64,000 nucleotides of DNA from Humidesulfovibrio mexicanus (GTDB taxonomy: Bacteria > Desulfobacterota > Desulfovibrionia > Desulfovibrionales > Desulfovibrionaceae), in the NCBI RefSeq assembly GCF_900188225.1, contig NZ_FZOC01000001.1, forward strand, positions 62,001-126,000, written 5' to 3'. Under the pieces are notes generated by a model, which saw only the letters and a program-made list of their open reading frames with translations, searched no databases and was not told the origin of the DNA. The position numbers and the translations under genes were made by a program. Below, piece by piece: positions 1,100 through 62,197 of this stretch. Position 1 is the first letter of the stretch. Each line of letters starts with the position of its first letter.

Positions 1100-2971
1100 A
1101 TGTCACGGAAATTCCTAACATTTCTTGTAAGTATCATCATTTCAACATGTTGCACCAGCTTGACCGCTTCGGCCATGGAGCGGCACGGCGATTTGCCACT
1201 GGGCACGCAATGGACGGCCTTTGAACTCACGCCTGCGGAGCTGCAGCAGACGGGGCTCATGGGGCCGGGCCTGGTTGTGCTCTTTGTCGAGCCGGATCGA
1301 GGCTGGTACACGTACACGGACCAGCCAGGAGAGGACGCAAAGCCCACGCGCCTTCAGGCGAGCATGGAAACAAAGCCGCTGACGGTGCTGTATCCCCCTG
1401 GGGTCGCGAAGGAAAACCCGCTTCATGCCGGAAAGCAGGTCTTCACGTACATCGGTAGGACACCGCTGTTCGTGCCATTGCCGGTCTTGCCCCCATCCGG
1501 AGACACGCCCAGGCTGGCTGCGCAACTTGATCTGCTGCTATGCTCTCAGGACAAGTGCCTTCCCGTCCGCATCAAGCTGGAAAGCACACTGCCGGCCCCT
1601 CTGCTGCGCGATGCGGACAAACAGCCTTGGTGGCCGCAGCTGCTTGCCGCCGCAAAAATCGCAAGCACAAGCACGCGGAAGTCCACACAGCTCTCCGAAA
1701 CCATGGGAAATCCGGACACAATGCCACGAACGGAGAGTTCGGCCTGGGCGGATCTGCGCCCTCGTTATTTCCAACCGGAGCTTGAGGTTTCGGGCCTTGT
1801 CAAGGCCGTGCTCCTGGGAGTTCTGGCTGGTTTCATACTGAACTTCATGCCGTGCGTGCTGCCCGTCATCAGCATCAAGCTTTCAGCGCTGCTCGCTGGG
1901 GGCGGCATTGAAGATGCCGCTCGGCGCAGAAGCGGTTTCAGGCGGCATAACCTTTTCTTCGCCTTCGGAATCATGCTGTATTTTCTATTCCTCGGCGGTC
2001 TCCTTGGCGTCACGGGGCTGGCCTGGGGGCAGATATTCCAGCAGGCCAACGTGGTCATGCTTTTGATCACCCTGGTTTTCATTCTCTCGCTGAGCCTTTT
2101 CGGCGTATTCAGTCTGCCGGTCATAGACCTGAAGTTCGGCCAACACGCAACCCATCCTAGACTCCAGGCCCTTTTCACCGGGCTTTTGGCGACGCTTTTG
2201 GCCACTCCCTGCAGCGGCCCCCTTCTCGGTGGCGTTCTGGGATGGACGCTCATGCAACCTGCATGGATCATCAGCAGCGTGCTTGCAGCCATTGGCGTGG
2301 GCATGGCGTTTCCCTACCTGCTCTTGAGCCTGTATCCCGACCTTGCACGCCTGTTTCCAAAACCTGGGTCATGGACTGGACACGTGGAAAAGGCCGTGGG
2401 CCTGTTTCTGGCCGGAACCTGCCTCTATCTGCTGTCGATCCTGCCAACGCCGCGGCTCATGCCAACCCTGGTTTTGCTGTGGTTCGCGGCCGTCGCCGGT
2501 TGGGCATGGGGGGTGGCCGGGCCTGGTTTCGACACCCTGCGGAACAGGAGCATCAAAATCGCGGCTCTGCTTTTTTTCGCTTTGGGCCTGTGGCTTGCCT
2601 TGCGGCCCCCTGAGACGAAGGCGCCTCTTGAGCCGTTCGCCACGGCGGCGTTGCGCGAACGCATGGGCCGACAGACCGTGCTTGTGGATTTCACGGCGGA
2701 CTGGTGTCCCTCATGTAAGGCGCTGGAGCAAACGACCTTGACGCCGGAACGCCTTAGGGCCATGAAGAACCGTTTTGATTTGGCGCTTATGAAAGCCGAC
2801 CTGACGCAGAGCAATCCCGATGCAGAAAGGCTTTTGGAGGCTCTTGGCAGCAAAAGCATTCCGCTTTTGGCTGTATTCCCCAAGAATGCCCCCAACGAGC
2901 CTTTGGTGCTGCGCGACCTGTTCACTCCGGCACAGTTGGAAGAAGCGCTTACGTCCACCGCACGTCAGTAA
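1100..2971 (+). CDS. dsbD: DsbD-type thiol:disulfide interchange protein
   Basis: A 623-residue inner-membrane protein that passes electrons from cytoplasmic thioredoxin to periplasmic thiols for disulfide isomerisation and cytochrome c maturation. All three DsbD modules are visible: a signal peptide and N-terminal periplasmic domain with a CSQDKC pair (Cys148/Cys153), a central transmembrane domain with the two redox cysteines in NFMPCVLP (Cys252) and ATPCSGP (Cys371), and a C-terminal thioredoxin-like domain with WCPSC (Cys536/Cys539). It is somewhat longer than the E. coli protein. The TrxA/TrxB pair that could feed it is near 57 kb in this window. The alcohol dehydrogenase gene follows after 11 bases. 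Confidence 0.92.
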   Translation: MSRKFLTFLVSIIISTCCTSLTASAMERHGDLPLGTQWTAFELTPAELQQTGLMGPGLVVLFVEPDRGWYTYTDQPGEDAKPTRLQASMETKPLTVLYPPGVAKENPLHAGKQVFTYIGRTPLFVPLPVLPPSGDTPRLAAQLDLLLCSQDKCLPVRIKLESTLPAPLLRDADKQPWWPQLLAAAKIASTSTRKSTQLSETMGNPDTMPRTESSAWADLRPRYFQPELEVSGLVKAVLLGVLAGFILNFMPCVLPVISIKLSALLAGGGIEDAARRRSGFRRHNLFFAFGIMLYFLFLGGLLGVTGLAWGQIFQQANVVMLLITLVFILSLSLFGVFSLPVIDLKFGQHATHPRLQALFTGLLATLLATPCSGPLLGGVLGWTLMQPAWIISSVLAAIGVGMAFPYLLLSLYPDLARLFPKPGSWTGHVEKAVGLFLAGTCLYLLSILPTPRLMPTLVLLWFAAVAGWAWGVAGPGFDTLRNRSIKIAALLFFALGLWLALRPPETKAPLEPFATAALRERMGRQTVLVDFTADWCPSCKALEQTTLTPERLRAMKNRFDLALMKADLTQSNPDAERLLEALGSKSIPLLAVFPKNAPNEPLVLRDLFTPAQLEEALTSTARQ

Positions 2972-2982
2972 AGGAGCCCCCC

Positions 2983-4167
2983 ATGTTGTCCTTCGCCTTC
3001 CATCTGCCCACCGCGCTGCTGTTCGGACCTGGAAAAATTGACGAAATCGAGACCAGCCCGCATATGCCCAAGGGGAAGAAAGCGCTCATCGTCATTGGCC
3101 AAAGCGGCAACATTCTGCGCCAGGGGTATCTTGCCCGTGTGCAGGGACTGCTCGGGGCAAGGGGCGTCAAAACAGTCGTCTTCGATGGGATTCGGGCCAA
3201 TCCTCGCACCGAGGACGTGGATGCGGCAGCGGAACAGGCCCGGAGCATGGGGGTGGATTTCATCGTGGGTCTCGGCGGTGGAAGCGTCCTGGATTCGGCC
3301 AAGGCCATCGCCCTTGCAGCGACAAAGGAAGCTCCGTTCTGGGCCGGTTTCGCCGCACAGGTCTACGAGAATGTCTGCGCTCTGCCCATGGTGGCGATTC
3401 CCACAACGGCAGGCACCGGCAGCGAAGCCAACGGAGCCGCACTTATTTGCGGCGCGCCGGGAAAACGCGGCTTCATCCAGCCAGGATTTTTCCCAACCCT
3501 GGCCGTGGTCGACCCTCGACTCAGCGCATCCATGCCCGCAAGACTCACGGCTGTTACCGGCATGGACGCCTTTTTCCACGCCGTGGAATGCTTCCTTTCC
3601 ACCGCGCGCCAACCCATGAGCGACATGCTCTGCCTGGAGGCCGCACATCTCGTCACCCGTTTTCTTCCCCAGGCCGTGGCCCAGGGCGACGACCTCAACG
3701 CCCGCACCGCCCTTGCCTGGGCCAGCACAGCGGCGGGAATGGCGCTGGCGCTTTCCTCCCCCATCTCTCAGCACGCCTTGGAGTATTCCTTCAGCGGCTC
3801 TGGGCGCGGTTCGGAGCACGGGGCCGGGCTTTCCGTGCTTTCGCGCCCGTACTTCAAGCGGTTTTTGCTGCTTGCACAACAGCAGGGGCAAGAGGACACG
3901 CTGGACCGGTTGTCGAATCTCTCAGTCGCCATGGGCTTCGGAGCTGATGATCAGCAAGGTCATCCCTTCCTGCTGGCGTTGGACGCCCTGCTCGAAGCCG
4001 TTGGTCTGTCCGAACTGCGCGCCGAGGATATGGGGTATTCAGCCGAGGAGATCCCGGCCTTTGTGGCTGCGGCCATGGCCCTCAAGGACGCCAGGAACTT
4101 TGCCAACACCCCCGTACGCATGGGGGAAGAGGACGTGCGCGGCATTTTCGAGGACGTGTTCAAATAG
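2983..4167 (+). CDS. Iron-containing alcohol dehydrogenase
   Basis: A 394-residue group III (Fe-type) NAD(P)-dependent alcohol dehydrogenase. The dinucleotide site shows as GGGSVLDSAKA (98-108), followed by the family signature PTTAGTGSEA (140-149). The four metal ligands can be placed as Asp195 and His199 in GMDAFFHA, His264 in SQHALE and His279 in SEHGAG, so the enzyme should be active. The substrate cannot be told from sequence; in sulfate reducers such enzymes often oxidise ethanol or other short alcohols. It starts 11 bases after dsbD with a GGAG ribosome site, suggesting co-transcription. Confidence 0.9.
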   Translation: MLSFAFHLPTALLFGPGKIDEIETSPHMPKGKKALIVIGQSGNILRQGYLARVQGLLGARGVKTVVFDGIRANPRTEDVDAAAEQARSMGVDFIVGLGGGSVLDSAKAIALAATKEAPFWAGFAAQVYENVCALPMVAIPTTAGTGSEANGAALICGAPGKRGFIQPGFFPTLAVVDPRLSASMPARLTAVTGMDAFFHAVECFLSTARQPMSDMLCLEAAHLVTRFLPQAVAQGDDLNARTALAWASTAAGMALALSSPISQHALEYSFSGSGRGSEHGAGLSVLSRPYFKRFLLLAQQQGQEDTLDRLSNLSVAMGFGADDQQGHPFLLALDALLEAVGLSELRAEDMGYSAEEIPAFVAAAMALKDARNFANTPVRMGEEDVRGIFEDVFK

Positions 4168-4326
4168 GAAGACAATGCCCGGCCGCACACATCGCGCCAT
4201 CTCTTGACGCTGGCATTCCCGGTCATGGAAAAAGGAATTCCGGTCGGAGCATGGAGAGTGCGGCGACCTGGTCGGCCAGGGGCTGTTCGCCTTGCGGTCG
4301 ATCACAATCAATGCCGGACGCAGAGG

Positions 4327-5250
4327 CTAGGGGTGCCCTTCCCAGCCCTCGGCCAACTCGTGCAGTCGGCTGAATCCCTCGTTGCGTACCCAGCGGACCC
4401 CGCCTTCCTTGGCGAACCAGGTGAGCTGACGCTTGGCGTAGGCACGGGTGTTCCGGAACCAAAGTCGACGAGCCTCGTCCAAATCCGTTTCGCCCAGCAC
4501 ATGCGCAAGCAATTCGGCGCACCCTATCCCCGAATAGCCTGGAGCGGAGCGATCGGGAGTGCGCAACCAGGCCTCGCGCAACTCGTTCAATGCGCCCCTT
4601 TCCAGCATGTTGCCGATGCGGAGGTTGAGGCGAGGTTCAAGTTCGCCAAGGGTGGCGGACACGCCGATTTTACGCAGCATCACGCCGGGTTCCGTGCTTT
4701 TCTGCTCCCGTATCCATTCGCTCAACGTACGGCCCGTGCCCAACAAAACCTCCAAGGCCCGTGCAATGCGCTGCGTGTCGTTCGGGTGCAGGCGCGAAGC
4801 GGTTTCCGGATCGGATTGGGCCAAATCCGCGTGCAAGGCGTTCGGCCCTTCGGCGTCCATCCTGGACAGAACCCAGGCGCGCACCTCCTGCGGAACAGGG
4901 GGAATGTCGGCCAAGCCGCGCTCCAAGGCCCGCACATACAGCCCTGTTCCCCCCACAAGCACAGGCACGCGTTTCTCCGCAAGGCATCGTGCTATCTCCT
5001 CCCGCGCCAACTCGGCAAAGCGGGCGGCGGTCATGGACTCTGCCGTGGGCAAAAAACCATAAAGCCTATGCGGACACGCGGCCTGTTCGTGCGCCTCGGG
5101 CTGGGCGGTGATAACGGGAAAATCGGCGTACAGCTGCCGCGAGTCAAAGTTGATCACCGTCACGGGCAGGCGCTCCGCCAGACATAAGGCCGCCTCGGTC
5201 TTGCCGGAGCCGGTAGGCCCAAGGATGCACAGGGCGCGCAGTGCGGTCAT
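4327..5250 (-). CDS. miaA: tRNA dimethylallyltransferase MiaA
   Basis: A 307-residue enzyme that attaches a dimethylallyl group from DMAPP to N6 of A37 in tRNAs reading UNN codons. The P-loop GPTGSGKT is at 11-18, followed by the DSRQLY motif and VGGTGLYVRAL in the prenyl-donor pocket. Its ATG overlaps the coaD stop by four bases (ATGA), pointing to translational coupling. It is the last gene of the beta-CASP - rsmD - coaD - miaA minus-strand unit. The 159 bases between it and the convergent alcohol dehydrogenase hold no gene and no clear terminator that I can see. Confidence 0.95.
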   Translation of the reverse strand: MTALRALCILGPTGSGKTEAALCLAERLPVTVINFDSRQLYADFPVITAQPEAHEQAACPHRLYGFLPTAESMTAARFAELAREEIARCLAEKRVPVLVGGTGLYVRALERGLADIPPVPQEVRAWVLSRMDAEGPNALHADLAQSDPETASRLHPNDTQRIARALEVLLGTGRTLSEWIREQKSTEPGVMLRKIGVSATLGELEPRLNLRIGNMLERGALNELREAWLRTPDRSAPGYSGIGCAELLAHVLGETDLDEARRLWFRNTRAYAKRQLTWFAKEGGVRWVRNEGFSRLHELAEGWEGHP

Positions 5251-5762
5251 GACGCCTGCTGGCCGCGCAAGGCTTCATATTTTGCGGCAAGGCCGGTCAG
5301 CACCGGTTCCGACACCAGCCCCTTGACGTTGCCGCCGTGCAGGGCCACTTCCTTCACGATGGTGGAACTCAGGTACATCCACTTGTAGTCGGTCATAAGG
5401 AACACGGTCTGCACCTGTCGTGAAAGCCTGCGGTTCATGAGCGCCATCTGAAATTCGTACTCGAAATCGCTCACCGCGCGCAGACCACGCAAGATGGCCC
5501 CGGCTCCCCGCTTGGCCACGTACTCGATGAGCAGCCCGTCAAAGGGCTCGACAACGATGTTCGGCTCGTCGGCAAAGCTCCGCCGGGCCATGTCCACGCG
5601 TTCCTCAAGCGTGAAGCAGGTTTTTTTGGGCGTGCTCTTGGCGATGGCCAGCACAACGGTCTCAAACACGCGCAGACCTCGGTAGATGAGGCTCATGTGG
5701 CCGCGGGTCAGAGGATCGAAGGTTCCGGGGTAGACTGCGAGCCTTGGGTTGAATTCCGCCAT
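5247..5762 (-). CDS. coaD: Phosphopantetheine adenylyltransferase CoaD
   Basis: A 171-residue enzyme making dephospho-CoA from 4'-phosphopantetheine and ATP, the penultimate step of CoA synthesis. The nucleotidyltransferase signature GTFDPLTRGH (13-22) and the later LSSTIVKEV motif are intact. The start cannot be moved downstream without losing the first strand that carries YPGTFDP, so the ATG at 5762, with a GAGGA ribosome site, is the only good choice. As a result the gene begins 55 bases inside rsmD. It is coupled to miaA by an ATGA overlap. Confidence 0.95.
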   Translation of the reverse strand: MAEFNPRLAVYPGTFDPLTRGHMSLIYRGLRVFETVVLAIAKSTPKKTCFTLEERVDMARRSFADEPNIVVEPFDGLLIEYVAKRGAGAILRGLRAVSDFEYEFQMALMNRRLSRQVQTVFLMTDYKWMYLSSTIVKEVALHGGNVKGLVSEPVLTGLAAKYEALRGQQAS

Positions 5763-17497: not shown

Positions 17498-18415
17498 TTA
17501 GGCGAAGGCCTTTTCCATGGGGGGAACAACCTGCTTCTTGCGGCTCATGCAGCCGTCAACCCACATGGAGTTGTTGGCCACCTTGCCATTGAAGGCCTTT
17601 TCCACCAGGGAGGCGTCTTCGGAGACCACGAGGATCTCGGAGCCTTCCTTCATGATGTCGGTCAGGAGCAGCATGACGGTGTGACGGCCGTCGGCCTTGG
17701 AGGACTTCACCTCTTCCAGCAGAGCGGGCTTCACCTTGTCGAGGAGGGTGAGGTCCAGCACTTCGACCTGGCCAATGCCGACCTTCTTGCCGCCCATGTT
17801 GAAATCCTTGAAGTCCCGGTACATGAGATCCTTGGCGGGGATGCCGTCCACGGAGCCCTTGATCTTCAGCATCTCCATGCCCAGAGCCTTGAAGTCGGCC
17901 ACACCGGCGATCTTGGCGAGGCCTTCGACGGCCTTCTTGTCGGCATCGGTGCAGGTGGGGGACTTGAAGAGGACGGTATCGTTCAGGATGGCGCACAAAA
18001 GGGCTCCGGCGATGCCCTTGGGGATCTCGATGCCGTAGAATTCGTACATGGCCTTGATGATGGTGCCGGTGCAGCCCACGGGCCAGACCCACATCTCAAG
18101 GGGATTGGGGGTGGTCACGTCGCCCAGCTTGTGGTGATCGACGACGAAGAGCACCTTGCCCTTGTCCAGGTTGTCAAGGGTCTGGGAAAGATCGGAGGTG
18201 TCGACCAGGGCGATGTCCTTGCCGGTGGCGTCGGTCTCGATGGCGGGAGCGGCCAGGCCAAACTTGTCCAGCACGAACTTGGCGTCAGGGGTGCAAGGAC
18301 CCTGGGCCGCTGCAACGGCTTCCATGCCGCGCTTGCTCAGCAGGTCGGCAACGGCAATGGCGGCGGTGATGGAATCGCAATCGGGATTTTTGTGACCGCA
18401 AACGATAATAGCCAT
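17498..18415 (-). CDS. ppaC: Manganese-dependent inorganic pyrophosphatase
   Basis: A 305-residue family II (DHH/DHHA2) pyrophosphatase hydrolysing pyrophosphate to phosphate. Metal ligands show in GHKNPDCDS (8-16) and VVDHHKLGD, and the C-terminal substrate motif SRKKQVVPP is intact. No CBS domains are inserted, so this is the simple form. The start at 18415 has a strong GAGGAGG site; the longer frame does not. In sulfate reducers this activity is important because sulfate activation by ATP sulfurylase releases pyrophosphate, and removing it pulls that reaction forward. It is monocistronic with its own terminator. Confidence 0.95.
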   Translation of the reverse strand: MAIIVCGHKNPDCDSITAAIAVADLLSKRGMEAVAAAQGPCTPDAKFVLDKFGLAAPAIETDATGKDIALVDTSDLSQTLDNLDKGKVLFVVDHHKLGDVTTPNPLEMWVWPVGCTGTIIKAMYEFYGIEIPKGIAGALLCAILNDTVLFKSPTCTDADKKAVEGLAKIAGVADFKALGMEMLKIKGSVDGIPAKDLMYRDFKDFNMGGKKVGIGQVEVLDLTLLDKVKPALLEEVKSSKADGRHTVMLLLTDIMKEGSEILVVSEDASLVEKAFNGKVANNSMWVDGCMSRKKQVVPPMEKAFA

Positions 18416-18654
18416 GTAGAAGTCCTCCTCAATATTATGTGGATGCCACAAACGGTCATTCCTCACGAATGATTGTTCCATTTATCACAAAGCATCGGCT
18501 TTGCCAAGCCAGAAGATGTCATGGGGATGTGAAAAATGAGGGTAACCGCTTCGCTTGCAACCCAAAAACAGTCCTGAAGGAGGAAACGCGAGTGCACAGC
18601 GCGGCGTCCAGGAAAGCTTTTGTGCGATTTGTCCCAAAGTGGCCTGGCGGAGTA

Positions 18655-19355
18655 TCAAAAAATTCCGAGAAGGCGCAAGACTCCGAGGACGATGCCCCCC
18701 CCGGCCAAGGCGACGTACAGGCTGCGCAGACGCAGGGCCAACAGCCCCCCAACGCTTGCGGCAAGAAGCAGTTCACTCCAGCTGATGCGACACGATGCCA
18801 GCGTTGGCCCGTACTGGTGCAGCACAAAATGAACGGCTGAGGCAAGCAGGCCTGCCCCGATAAGGAAAAACAGCCAATTCGCAAGAAGCTTGCTGATGAG
18901 CGTCCACATGAGCAGCCGCCCTGGCACAGCGACATCCGCAGGCTTGCGCACCCATTGCAGCACGCCGCTGTATGATCGGTTCAGACGGTCGCGCATGATG
19001 CGCTCCAGGCGTGTCCCCATCCAGGCCATGGGCAAGCCGGCTGCAAGGGCTAGGCTGGCCAATGGCAGGGAATCAAGGCCAAAGTAGCTGCACAAGGCCA
19101 ATGCAGTGAACGTTGCTGCGGTTGTGTGCGGGGGAATGAAGGTGCCGACCGGGATGAAGTCGAGCCAGAGCAGTTCGAAAAACACGGCAACCAGCATACT
19201 CGTCTCAAGATTGCCGAAAGAAAGCCCCCAAAGAAGCCCGACAAACAGGGGGCGCTCAATGAGCCCAAGGCTTAGCGAAAAGCGGAAAAGGGAAAACAGC
19301 GCAAAAAAAAACCAACGGTGGCGAACCACACAGGGCCGGTCATGCTTGCGTCCAT
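18655..19355 (-). CDS. Mannose-type PTS EIIC component, probably frameshifted
   Basis: The main open frame (GTG at 19329 to 18655, 224 residues) encodes a sorbose/mannose-family EIIC membrane protein with about six hydrophobic segments and the ERPLFVGLLWG motif near its start. That GTG has no ribosome site. By contrast the ATG at 19355 overlaps the EIIB stop (TGATG), has GAGG eight bases upstream and encodes VWFATVGFFF, which fits the first membrane helix, but this frame stops after 28 codons. The two frames join if one base is gained, or the ribosome slips back one, in a run of nine T at about 19302-19310. I therefore give the region from the coupled ATG. No EIID gene is present. Confidence 0.7.
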
Positions 19356-19816
19356 CAGGTGAACCTCACGGATACAGGATCGTTTGGAACGCAACGAAAG
19401 TCGAGCTCAACGCCCTTGTCCTGCAGGAAACGCAAACAGGCCTCGTCGTCCGGACCGATGGAAACGCTGGGAGACACCTGACGTTTTCCCTGTGAATAAT
19501 GAAGGTTGCCGATGTTCAGAATGGAGATGGACAGCCCCTTTTCCACCGCTCGCCGGACATCGAGACAGGTAGAGAACAGGAGCAGCGTTGATTCACGGGC
19601 AGGCGCCTTGAGCCTCGAATCCGCGGCTAGGGCGTCTATGGGCAAAAAGGCGCTTTCCACCGCCCTTGGAATCGCCAAGGACATGATCTCCTGCTGAAAT
19701 TCGTCGCGGGACAATTCGTCGTTGCCGACGATGATGCACTTGGCGTCCATAAACGGCACCCATGCCTCCACAACCTGCCCGTGGATTAGCCGGTTGTCGA
19801 CCCGCACCCAAAACAC
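19355..19816 (-). CDS. Mannose-type PTS EIIB component
   Basis: A 153-residue cytosolic EIIB domain of the mannose/fructose/sorbose PTS family. The phosphorylated histidine lies in VDNRLIHGQV (His12), the usual EIIB(Man) context. I start at the GTG at 19816, with GGGAG upstream; longer starts would reach back into the EIIA gene. Phosphate would come from the EIIA product of the gene 13 bases upstream and pass to a sugar through EIIC/EIID, but EIID is missing here, so a regulatory role is plausible. Its stop overlaps the presumed EIIC start by one base. Confidence 0.85.
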   Translation of the reverse strand: MFWVRVDNRLIHGQVVEAWVPFMDAKCIIVGNDELSRDEFQQEIMSLAIPRAVESAFLPIDALAADSRLKAPARESTLLLFSTCLDVRRAVEKGLSISILNIGNLHYSQGKRQVSPSVSIGPDDEACLRFLQDKGVELDFRCVPNDPVSVRFT

Positions 19817-19829
19817 GACAGCCGCTCCC

Positions 19830-20288
19830 TCAGGTCCGCTTCCTGAGCATTTCGCCAGGGACGACAATACCTTGCACACCTGCGGATTTGGCCTGGGCGG
19901 CCAAAGCATCCAGGCTTTCCGAACGCGACTGGAGCACCTTGAGCAGCATGGGAAGGTTTACTCCGGCCACAACCTCGACATTGCCGAGCTTGCGCAGAGA
20001 AAGACTCAAGGTCGTCGGGGTGCCGCCAAAAAGGTCCGTCAACACCAGCACGCCCATGCCCATTTCCAACTGGGCCAAATCGACCTTCAGTTCCGCAAGA
20101 ATATCGTCCACCCCGCGCGATTCGAGCACAGAGACCGCGAGGAGCCCCTCTTGGGGGCCGACAATCAACTGCGCCGCACCAAGCAAGGCCGCGCCAAACT
20201 CCCCGTGTGTGACAAGAAGCACGCCCACCTGCCGGGCTCCGGGGCGCGCATCGTTGGATTCCGCCATCATACCGCCTGTGTGCGCCAT
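19830..20288 (-). CDS. Mannose-type PTS EIIA component
   Basis: A roughly 152-residue EIIA(Man)-type domain. The phosphoryl-accepting histidine is in LLVTHGEFG (His28 with this start), and TDLFGGTP, typical of the fold, is present. Two starts are possible: the ATG at 20288 with AGGTG six bases upstream, or ATG-ATG at 20270/20267 after AGGCGG. The gene follows rapZ, in the place where E. coli has npr, so it sits in the rpoN-linked PTS context. It would accept phosphate from HPr, which is not in this window. Confidence 0.85.
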   Translation of the reverse strand: MAHTGGMMAESNDARPGARQVGVLLVTHGEFGAALLGAAQLIVGPQEGLLAVSVLESRGVDDILAELKVDLAQLEMGMGVLVLTDLFGGTPTTLSLSLRKLGNVEVVAGVNLPMLLKVLQSRSESLDALAAQAKSAGVQGIVVPGEMLRKRT

Positions 20289-20315
20289 GGTGCGCACCTG
20301 TTCTGGAACGAACTG

Positions 20316-21203
20316 TCAACCAAGGTCGAAGTGCCGGTGCTCCAGGGTGACGCTGTAGCCCGCATCATGCAAAGTGGCATAGGCCAATTCCGCAAGCGCA
20401 ACGGAACGGTGCCTCCCCCCGGTGCACCCCAGGGCCAGGGCCACGCGGTAGCGTCCTTCGGCCGCATAAAGCGGCAACAGGTAGAGCAAAAAATCAAGGA
20501 ACCTGGCCTTGAAGGTCCGCCCGGTCTCCGAGTCGAGCACATAGTCCGCCACTGGGGCGTCCTTCCCGGACATGGGCCTAAGCTCGGGGACGAAATATGG
20601 GTTTGGCAAAAAACGCAGATCAAAGACAAGGTCCGCCTCGGCCGGTGCGCCGTACTTGAAGCCGAAGCTCATGACGTGCACGCGCATTCCCTGCCCTGCA
20701 TGTTCCTTGGCGCCGAAACGCTCCTGAATCTGGCGGCGCAAGTCATGGATGGAAAAGCTGCTTGTGTCGAGCACCAGTTCAGCATCGCGCCGAAGAGGCG
20801 CAAGCAGGGCGCGCTCCTTGGCCAGGGCCTGCTCAAGCCCTCTTTCGTCGCTCTCCAGAGGATGCGGACGGCGCGTGGTGGCGTATCGGCGCATGATGGC
20901 GTCGACCGTGGCTTCCACAAACAGCACCCGAACCACTATGCCCTTTGCGGCAAGCTCCTGCACCGCGTCATTCCATTGGTCAAGAAACTCATGTTGTCGC
21001 AAGTCCATGCCCAGGGCGAGTCCCCTGTGTTTGGAGTCCTTGCCGAGAAACAAGGCGACGAGCTTGGGAAGCATGGCTGCGGGAAGACCATCCACGCAAA
21101 AATAGCCCAGATCCTCGAACACGTTGAGCGCCGTGCTTTTGCCCGCTCCGGACAGGCCGGTGACCACCACGACCGAGAAGGACTCTGACGGATACTGCGA
21201 CAT
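20316..21203 (-). CDS. rapZ: RNase adapter / nucleotide-binding protein RapZ
   Basis: A 295-residue P-loop protein of the RapZ (YvcJ) family. Walker A is GLSGAGKS (16-23); the C-terminal half contains GCTGGRHRSV typical of the family. In E. coli RapZ binds small RNAs and guides RNase E to GlmZ, controlling amino-sugar synthesis; Gram-positive members bind nucleotides and affect competence or carbon regulation. Which role applies here is unknown. Its place after ptsN matches the widely conserved rpoN-hpf-ptsN-rapZ order. Confidence 0.92.
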   Translation of the reverse strand: MSQYPSESFSVVVVTGLSGAGKSTALNVFEDLGYFCVDGLPAAMLPKLVALFLGKDSKHRGLALGMDLRQHEFLDQWNDAVQELAAKGIVVRVLFVEATVDAIMRRYATTRRPHPLESDERGLEQALAKERALLAPLRRDAELVLDTSSFSIHDLRRQIQERFGAKEHAGQGMRVHVMSFGFKYGAPAEADLVFDLRFLPNPYFVPELRPMSGKDAPVADYVLDSETGRTFKARFLDFLLYLLPLYAAEGRYRVALALGCTGGRHRSVALAELAYATLHDAGYSVTLEHRHFDLG

Positions 21204-21215
21204 GACTGACGGACC

Positions 21216-21665
21216 TCAGTAAGACTGGAGCAGGCGCAAAAGCCCCTCGCGGTCCTCGGCCTCAAAGAAGTCCTTACGGAACGAATCGTCCTTGATGAGC
21301 CGCGAGATGTGCGCAAGGATGCGCAGGTGGATTCCGGTCATCTGCTCTGGCGCAAGAACCAGAAAAAAGATGCTGCACGGCTTGAAGTCCAAGGCCTCAA
21401 AATCAACACCATGCAGGCTGCGCCCCACAAGCAGGATGATGTTCGACAGCGTGGGGAGCTTGCCATGCGGAATGGCGACGCCATCGCCAATGCCTGTGGT
21501 GCCGAGCCCCTCCCGGTCCAGCAGGACCGAGAGGGCAAGATCGGCATCAAGCTGCGGGTGCCTGGCGGCTACGGCCATGGTCATTTCCCGCAGAACTTCG
21601 GGCTTGCTGGTGGCCGCAAGAGCGGGCAGCACCAATTCCCGATCCAGATACTCGTCAAGACGCAT
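21216..21665 (-). CDS. ptsN: Nitrogen PTS EIIA protein PtsN
   Basis: A 149-residue EIIA(Ntr)/fructose-type domain with the active histidine in GVAIPHGK (His67). In other proteobacteria its phosphorylation state links nitrogen and carbon status to potassium transport, sigma-54 regulons and phosphate signalling. It sits two bases after hpf and 12 bases before rapZ and is surely co-transcribed with them. Confidence 0.92.
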   Translation of the reverse strand: MRLDEYLDRELVLPALAATSKPEVLREMTMAVAARHPQLDADLALSVLLDREGLGTTGIGDGVAIPHGKLPTLSNIILLVGRSLHGVDFEALDFKPCSIFFLVLAPEQMTGIHLRILAHISRLIKDDSFRKDFFEAEDREGLLRLLQSY

Positions 21666-61921: not shown

Positions 61922-62197
61922 TCACTGCAGGCGCGAGCCGAAGCGTCCGTTGGGCCGAACACGTGCCAACGGCGCACGAAGCTCCTCAAGAAAACTCGCG
62001 GTGGCGCTCTCCACGCGCGACACATCATCCTCGTTCAACAGCACGGTGTCGATGCGGCGCAAAAAATCCTTGAGCACGCCAAACTCCTCAAGCAGGCCCT
62101 TGCCGAGCTCAAGCTTCTCCAATTCCGGCTCCAAATCCAAAATGGTTTGGAGGCAGTTGGAAATGCGCGCCAAATGGCTGTCATCCGGATTGCTCAT
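61922..62197 (-). CDS. Small conserved-looking protein, 91 residues
   Basis: A 91-residue acidic helical protein with leucine repeats (ILDLEPELEKLELGKGLLEEFGVLKDFL) and no cysteine or signal. Not recognised. The ATG at 62197 has GGAG upstream; a longer frame lies within pgsA. It sits nine bases before ftsB. Confidence 0.65.
   Translation of the reverse strand: MSNPDDSHLARISNCLQTILDLEPELEKLELGKGLLEEFGVLKDFLRRIDTVLLNEDDVSRVESATASFLEELRAPLARVRPNGRFGSRLQ

Follow-up and report, generated by a model that had tools for sequence, protein, structure and literature searches.

A conserved nine-T run as a probable programmed slippage site in the PTS EIIC gene of Humidesulfovibrio mexicanus and its order

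We examined a 64,000-nucleotide stretch of the Humidesulfovibrio mexicanus genome (the window; assembly GCF_900188225.1, contig NZ_FZOC01000001.1, forward-strand positions 62,001 to 126,000), in which the gene for a PTS EIIC protein, the membrane component of a sugar-uptake system of this sulfate reducer, is divided between two reading frames at a run of nine T (T9). Comparison of related sequences indicates that the T9 site is ancient and order-wide, with one gain and about six losses. The split very probably reflects a built-in slip, most likely by RNA polymerase, on which the cell depends for whole EIIC. Some programmed shift, whether transcriptional or ribosomal, is highly probable; the narrower reading, that T9 is an ancient programmed slippage site at which RNA polymerase slippage throttles EIIC synthesis, we consider probable. 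The observed basis for this reading is the run itself, its register, the intact gene body, the conservation of the arrangement, and the loss of the run only through unbroken genes.

The EIIC locus and its gene array

The features discussed here all lie on the minus strand of the window:
17498..18481, minus strand: manganese-dependent inorganic pyrophosphatase, the next downstream gene (profile match)
18655..19311, minus strand: EIIC body, read in the -1 frame; 218 codons starting at the run, followed by a stop (PF03609, PTS EIIC of the mannose/sorbose family, E 4.6e-13)
19272..19355, minus strand: zero-frame start of EIIC, an ATG frame of 27 sense codons ending in TAA, which encodes the N-terminal portion of membrane helix 1
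19303..19311, minus strand: T9 run, the putative slippage site, A9 on the plus strand (sequence)
19327..19329, minus strand: body-frame GTG, unconserved as a start
19355..19909, minus strand: PTS EIIB, sorbose subfamily (profile match; domain from residue 33 of the ORF)
19364..19367, minus strand: GAGG resembling a Shine-Dalgarno sequence, 8 bases ahead of the EIIC ATG (sequence)
19830..20297, minus strand: PTS EIIA, mannose family (profile match)
20316..21203, minus strand: RapZ, the upstream gene in the same operon-like array (profile match)
21216..21665, minus strand: EIIA-Ntr/PtsN-like protein, PTS_EIIA_2 (profile match)

The minus-strand array runs in the order LptB-like ATPase, RpoN, HPF, PtsN-like EIIA, RapZ, EIIA-Man, EIIB, EIIC, manganese pyrophosphatase; the PTS genes, RapZ, and the pyrophosphatase were named by profile, and RpoN, HPF, and LptB by reading the open reading frames. 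Because the EIIB domain begins only at residue 33 of its ORF, the true EIIB start lies downstream of 19909. The EIIC body matches PF03609 and, distantly, the E. coli ManY structures 6K1H and 7DYR, with EIIA and EIIB adjacent and EIID elsewhere in the genome, as expected of a mannose/sorbose-type PTS. This PTS is complete but split over two loci: EIID, HPr, and EI form one cluster far from EIIA/EIIB/EIIC (G000:C4:82500-92500, ORFs 2545-4329, 4329-4673, and 4686-5570, minus strand). The nearest named relatives belong to Humidesulfovibrio and other Desulfovibrionaceae.

The reading of the start region in the original prediction agrees with the sequence. The ATG of EIIC (19355-19353) overlaps the EIIB stop TGA (19357-19355) as TGATG, the GAGG at 19367-19364 sits eight bases ahead of it, and the ATG frame supplies the conserved beginning of the first membrane helix. 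This frame does stop early, at a TAA (19274-19272); however, the 28 codons reported for it include the stop, and the sense codons number 27. Averaged over the aligned loci, anti-SD energy reaches its minimum 48-54 bases before the run, which is at the start codon; in H. mexicanus the ATG lies 44 bases from the run. The run is exactly nine T with a G bordering each side (G000:C1:81302-81312 with flanks), and the zero frame through it reads GGT TTT TTT TTG, placing the slippery heptamer T_TTT_TTT in register, as predicted. The remainder of EIIC lies one frame away, open across the run to its stop at 18655; again as proposed, the gain of a single base within T9, or a -1 slip of the ribosome there, connects the two frames. 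The sole start codon of the long frame ahead of the body is the GTG at 19329, which, in line with the earlier reading, has no Shine-Dalgarno sequence.

Conservation of the run and selection on it

We checked order-wide conservation in two partly overlapping ways, by homologue extraction and by a pattern census. A search of 119 relatives found the EIIC gene in 100 of them, and 99 of these loci were informative. Run-length comparison in related genomes, which had been suggested as a check, gave a clear result: an exact T9, in the same out-of-frame register and the same phase relative to the body, was present in 92 of the 99 informative homologues, and the EIIC body was open in every one of these (212-244 codons in complete loci). 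With exact T9 runs numbering just nine in the whole genome of H. mexicanus, such recurrence of run and register goes well beyond chance. In the seven exceptions the run was lost or interrupted and the gene was unbroken from an in-frame start. T9 occurred in all 13 members of Humidesulfovibrio having the gene. In a set of named loci, which overlaps the first set, T9 was present in 70 of 80 and T10, in frame, in two; the isolates with T9 include Pseudodesulfovibrio pelocollis, Nitratidesulfovibrio oxamicus, Solidesulfovibrio alcoholivorans, and Halodesulfovibrio spirochaetisodalis. The EIIC genes that we examined outside the order, in other classes of the phylum, were unbroken, with in-frame starts, and had no run.

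For the census we used a pattern consisting of the run and its conserved downstream bases, and reversed-pattern controls gave few chance matches. Across the order, the T9 pattern was found in 226 of 348 genomes and the in-frame T10 pattern in 4, and all six families carry T9. The T8 pattern was found in ten genomes; four of its matches were at the gene, three of them in genes unbroken via other changes and one, in genome G452 (locus L230), still out of frame with its ATG, a situation observed at this site only there. In genome G606 (locus L226), a T10 is in frame across the run, then the frame closes after 60 codons; the gene may first have come into frame and then been disrupted again. A number of genera in the family (e.g., g20, g39, and g42), many of them with small genomes, scarcely matched the T9 site or did not match it at all, and the PTS EIIC gene seems to have been lost or to have diverged in them.

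We built a tree of the EIIC bodies after removing the columns of the run. In it, the order separated from the outgroup with full support, and the T9 state changed seven times on the tree, as one gain and six losses; the tree was made by a quick method, so the loss count is approximate. The slippage device is therefore not indispensable, as a few relatives do without the run.

Judged from its substitution pattern, the run is kept by selection as a run of nucleotides. The three TTT codons within it had zero wobble changes to TTC on the tree, compared to 7-19 changes for other Phe codons, and elsewhere in these genes 51% of Phe codons are TTT. The first T of the run is the third base of a zero-frame codon (GGT, GCT, AGT, or TGT) and is T in 92 of 92 loci, whereas in comparable Gly, Ala, Ser, and Cys codons of the bodies T makes up ~21% of T plus C. 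The last T is equally invariant (92/92), and all nine positions are fixed. Given that the unbroken relatives have no Phe-Phe-Phe at the position of the run, the encoded amino acids are not the reason for its conservation. Among the 13 congeners, substitutions follow the ATG frame before the run (211/116/346 by codon position, rich in third positions) and the body frame after it, which indicates that both parts are read and that the frame changes at the run.

Programmed slippage and the alternatives to it

In the mechanism that we favor, RNA polymerase would slip at T9 and add one U to a minority of the EIIC messages (U10). On a U10 message, ribosomes starting at the ATG, which is coupled to the EIIB stop, would continue into the 218-codon body and yield complete EIIC; the templated U9 messages would give just a short peptide terminating shortly past the run. 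Overall, EIIC synthesis would be throttled and set relative to the cotranscribed EIIA and EIIB. We infer from the sequence that slipping occurs and that it is transcriptional, and the same is true of its frequency and purpose. The site is an A/T homopolymer, long enough to be prone to slippage, that lies where two frames overlap, and its length is conserved in both the homologue set (92/99) and the census (226/348). Conservation of a 9A or 9T length among homologues has been taken to make purposeful transcriptional slippage very likely (Baranov 2005, PMC1088944), and E. coli RNA polymerase slips more readily on poly-T, with insertion preferred (PMC6260861).

The strongest competitor is programmed -1 ribosomal frameshifting into the body frame on U_UUU_UUU (or U_UUU_UUG), which we consider unlikely. 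The heptamer xxT TTT TTT is in the zero-frame register in the T9 loci, and U_UU.U_UU.U is a frameshift-prone motif that in E. coli exceeds 0.10% without a stimulator (PMC4066793). However, such stimulator-less heptamers raise slippage no more than ~tenfold above a background of 0.055%, so that in E. coli it stays well below 1% (PMC4066793), and we found no stimulator. In the aligned loci, neither side of the run showed a conserved structure exceeding that of shuffles (mean z 0.08, -0.24, and 0.10), and no internal Shine-Dalgarno sequence or anti-SD minimum near the run, including upstream of it. In addition, a single heptamer needs only seven bases; the first and the ninth T are synonymously free under one or the other heptamer, yet both are invariant. 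The lack of stimulators together with the invariance of both run ends favors RNA polymerase slippage over a ribosomal shift, although the polymerase and the ribosome may both be at work. Thus, where the original prediction left transcriptional slippage and a programmed -1 shift side by side, a programmed shift of some kind is strongly supported; the transcriptional form fits better, without being proved.

The remaining explanations deny a programmed shift, and each is far less probable. Phase variation, in which gains and losses during replication switch EIIC on (T10) and off (T9), was among the possibilities first raised and now appears very unlikely. Homopolymers are mutable, and in-frame T10 does occur in 4 of the 348 genomes; however, a switch should often show both states, and run length is nearly invariant instead, with 226 T9 genomes against those 4 and very few T8. 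Close relatives do not differ in length (T9 in 13 of 13 congeners), and the EIIC bodies of T9 genomes are still under purifying selection. Slightly less probable again is that the body is translated separately, by reinitiation from an internal start (GTG 19329 or later), with the ATG frame as a small leader. The GTG is present here and in most congeners, but it arises from a conserved Trp codon and the base before it (xxG TGG of the conserved WF(A/V)) and is absent in most other genera, and 41 of 92 loci lack any ATG, GTG, or TTG in the body frame ahead of body residue 19. Upstream of the run, the codon positions of the body frame carry no coding pattern, and the ATG frame encodes the conserved helix start, and in unbroken relatives this N-terminal segment is fused to the body. 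Sequencing error, also suggested originally, or a decayed pseudogene has a negligible probability. Homopolymers are error-prone; nevertheless, the same length and register recur independently in dozens of assemblies from many genera, isolates included, and this recurrence across species refutes both error and pseudogene. The bodies are open in all of these genomes, keep their conserved motif columns, and are under purifying selection.

Two further candidates were rejected. One was an intrinsic terminator or attenuator: we found no terminator-like site at the U-run in the window, and upstream folding was no better than that of shuffles. A conserved role for the short zero-frame peptide was set aside because the distance from the first T of the run to its end ranges from 10 to 235 bases, which indicates that only the part shared with EIIC is kept.

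Function, novelty, and comparison with known systems

Programmed slippage at T9 would likely keep EIIC low relative to EIIA and EIIB, and these two proteins, arrayed with rpoN, ptsN, and rapZ, may have regulatory roles. The run has been conserved despite easy mutation to T10, which suggests that EIIC made without throttling does harm or, alternatively, that the slip is under regulation. A bolder possibility, to which we assign a low probability, is a regulated switch operating on this housekeeping membrane transporter since the origin of the order, with slip frequency tracking UTP or the state of RNA polymerase; if so, EIIC and the balance between transport and regulatory PTS roles would follow the nucleotide or energy state of the cell. 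In D. vulgaris, the fitness patterns of PtsI and of a putative EIIA (DVU1632) on alternative nitrogen sources are strong and alike (PMC10102598), which indicates that the PTS is physiologically active there.

We found no prior report in the open-access papers searched of slippage in this EIIC gene or in this order, although an earlier mention is possible (Sharma 2011, Santana 2006). The main text of Antonov 2013 does not mention PTS or phosphotransferase; frameshifts <50 nt from a start can escape the program used there, and the EIIC run, 44 nt from its start, would therefore do so. The kind of mechanism is already known, and the EIIC case is unusually old and widespread. Most known bacterial examples of programmed transcriptional slippage come from IS elements, secretion systems, dnaX, and AT-rich symbionts, and a single T9 site kept in a core transporter through an entire order would be one of the oldest and most broadly conserved examples in a cellular gene. 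Automatic annotation is likely to miss EIIC or call it a pseudogene throughout the order. Some hosts are culturable and have genetics (Desulfovibrio/Nitratidesulfovibrio), and EIIC offers a simple test bed for why a cell keeps a gene permanently out of frame.

The closest known system is mxiE of Shigella flexneri, which, like EIIC, has nine T between overlapping ORFs, with one added U giving the longer protein (PMC1088944). It slips on T9 (PMC6260861), at 20-30% (PMC4256274). The two differ in that mxiE is a plasmid regulator gene of one genus, whereas EIIC is a chromosomal transporter gene with the site near its N terminus, found order-wide; mxiE slippage has been measured, whereas that of EIIC is read from sequence. 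Recoding in prfB and in IS elements is likewise needed for the full product and is conserved across species; however, it is ribosomal and usually accompanied by Shine-Dalgarno or structural stimulators, unlike what we see at the EIIC run. E. coli ManY, the EIIC of the mannose PTS, is a homologous membrane protein, and, as noted above, the EIIC genes examined outside the order are unbroken.

Thermus thermophilus dnaX, a cellular gene with nine identical bases (A9), has a product ratio set by heterogeneity in message length (PMC1088944). Its slippage shortens the product and both products function, whereas in EIIC slippage would be needed for the full product. The short EIIC peptide has no conserved end. 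Insect endosymbiont genomes are AT-rich and have many long runs. Among these bacteria, Blochmannia reportedly has old poly-A frameshifts that are kept and rescued by slippage (Wernegreen 2010), as proposed here for the EIIC split. By contrast, the window here is ~61% GC, and the whole 3.52-Mb genome contains only nine exact T9 runs. The eight T9/A9 runs other than that in EIIC are at G000:C1:348033, C1:690376, C2:211415, C2:234739, C2:557040, C4:116178, C10:13401, and C11:24302; several of them lie inside long open frames and may cause unprogrammed slippage.
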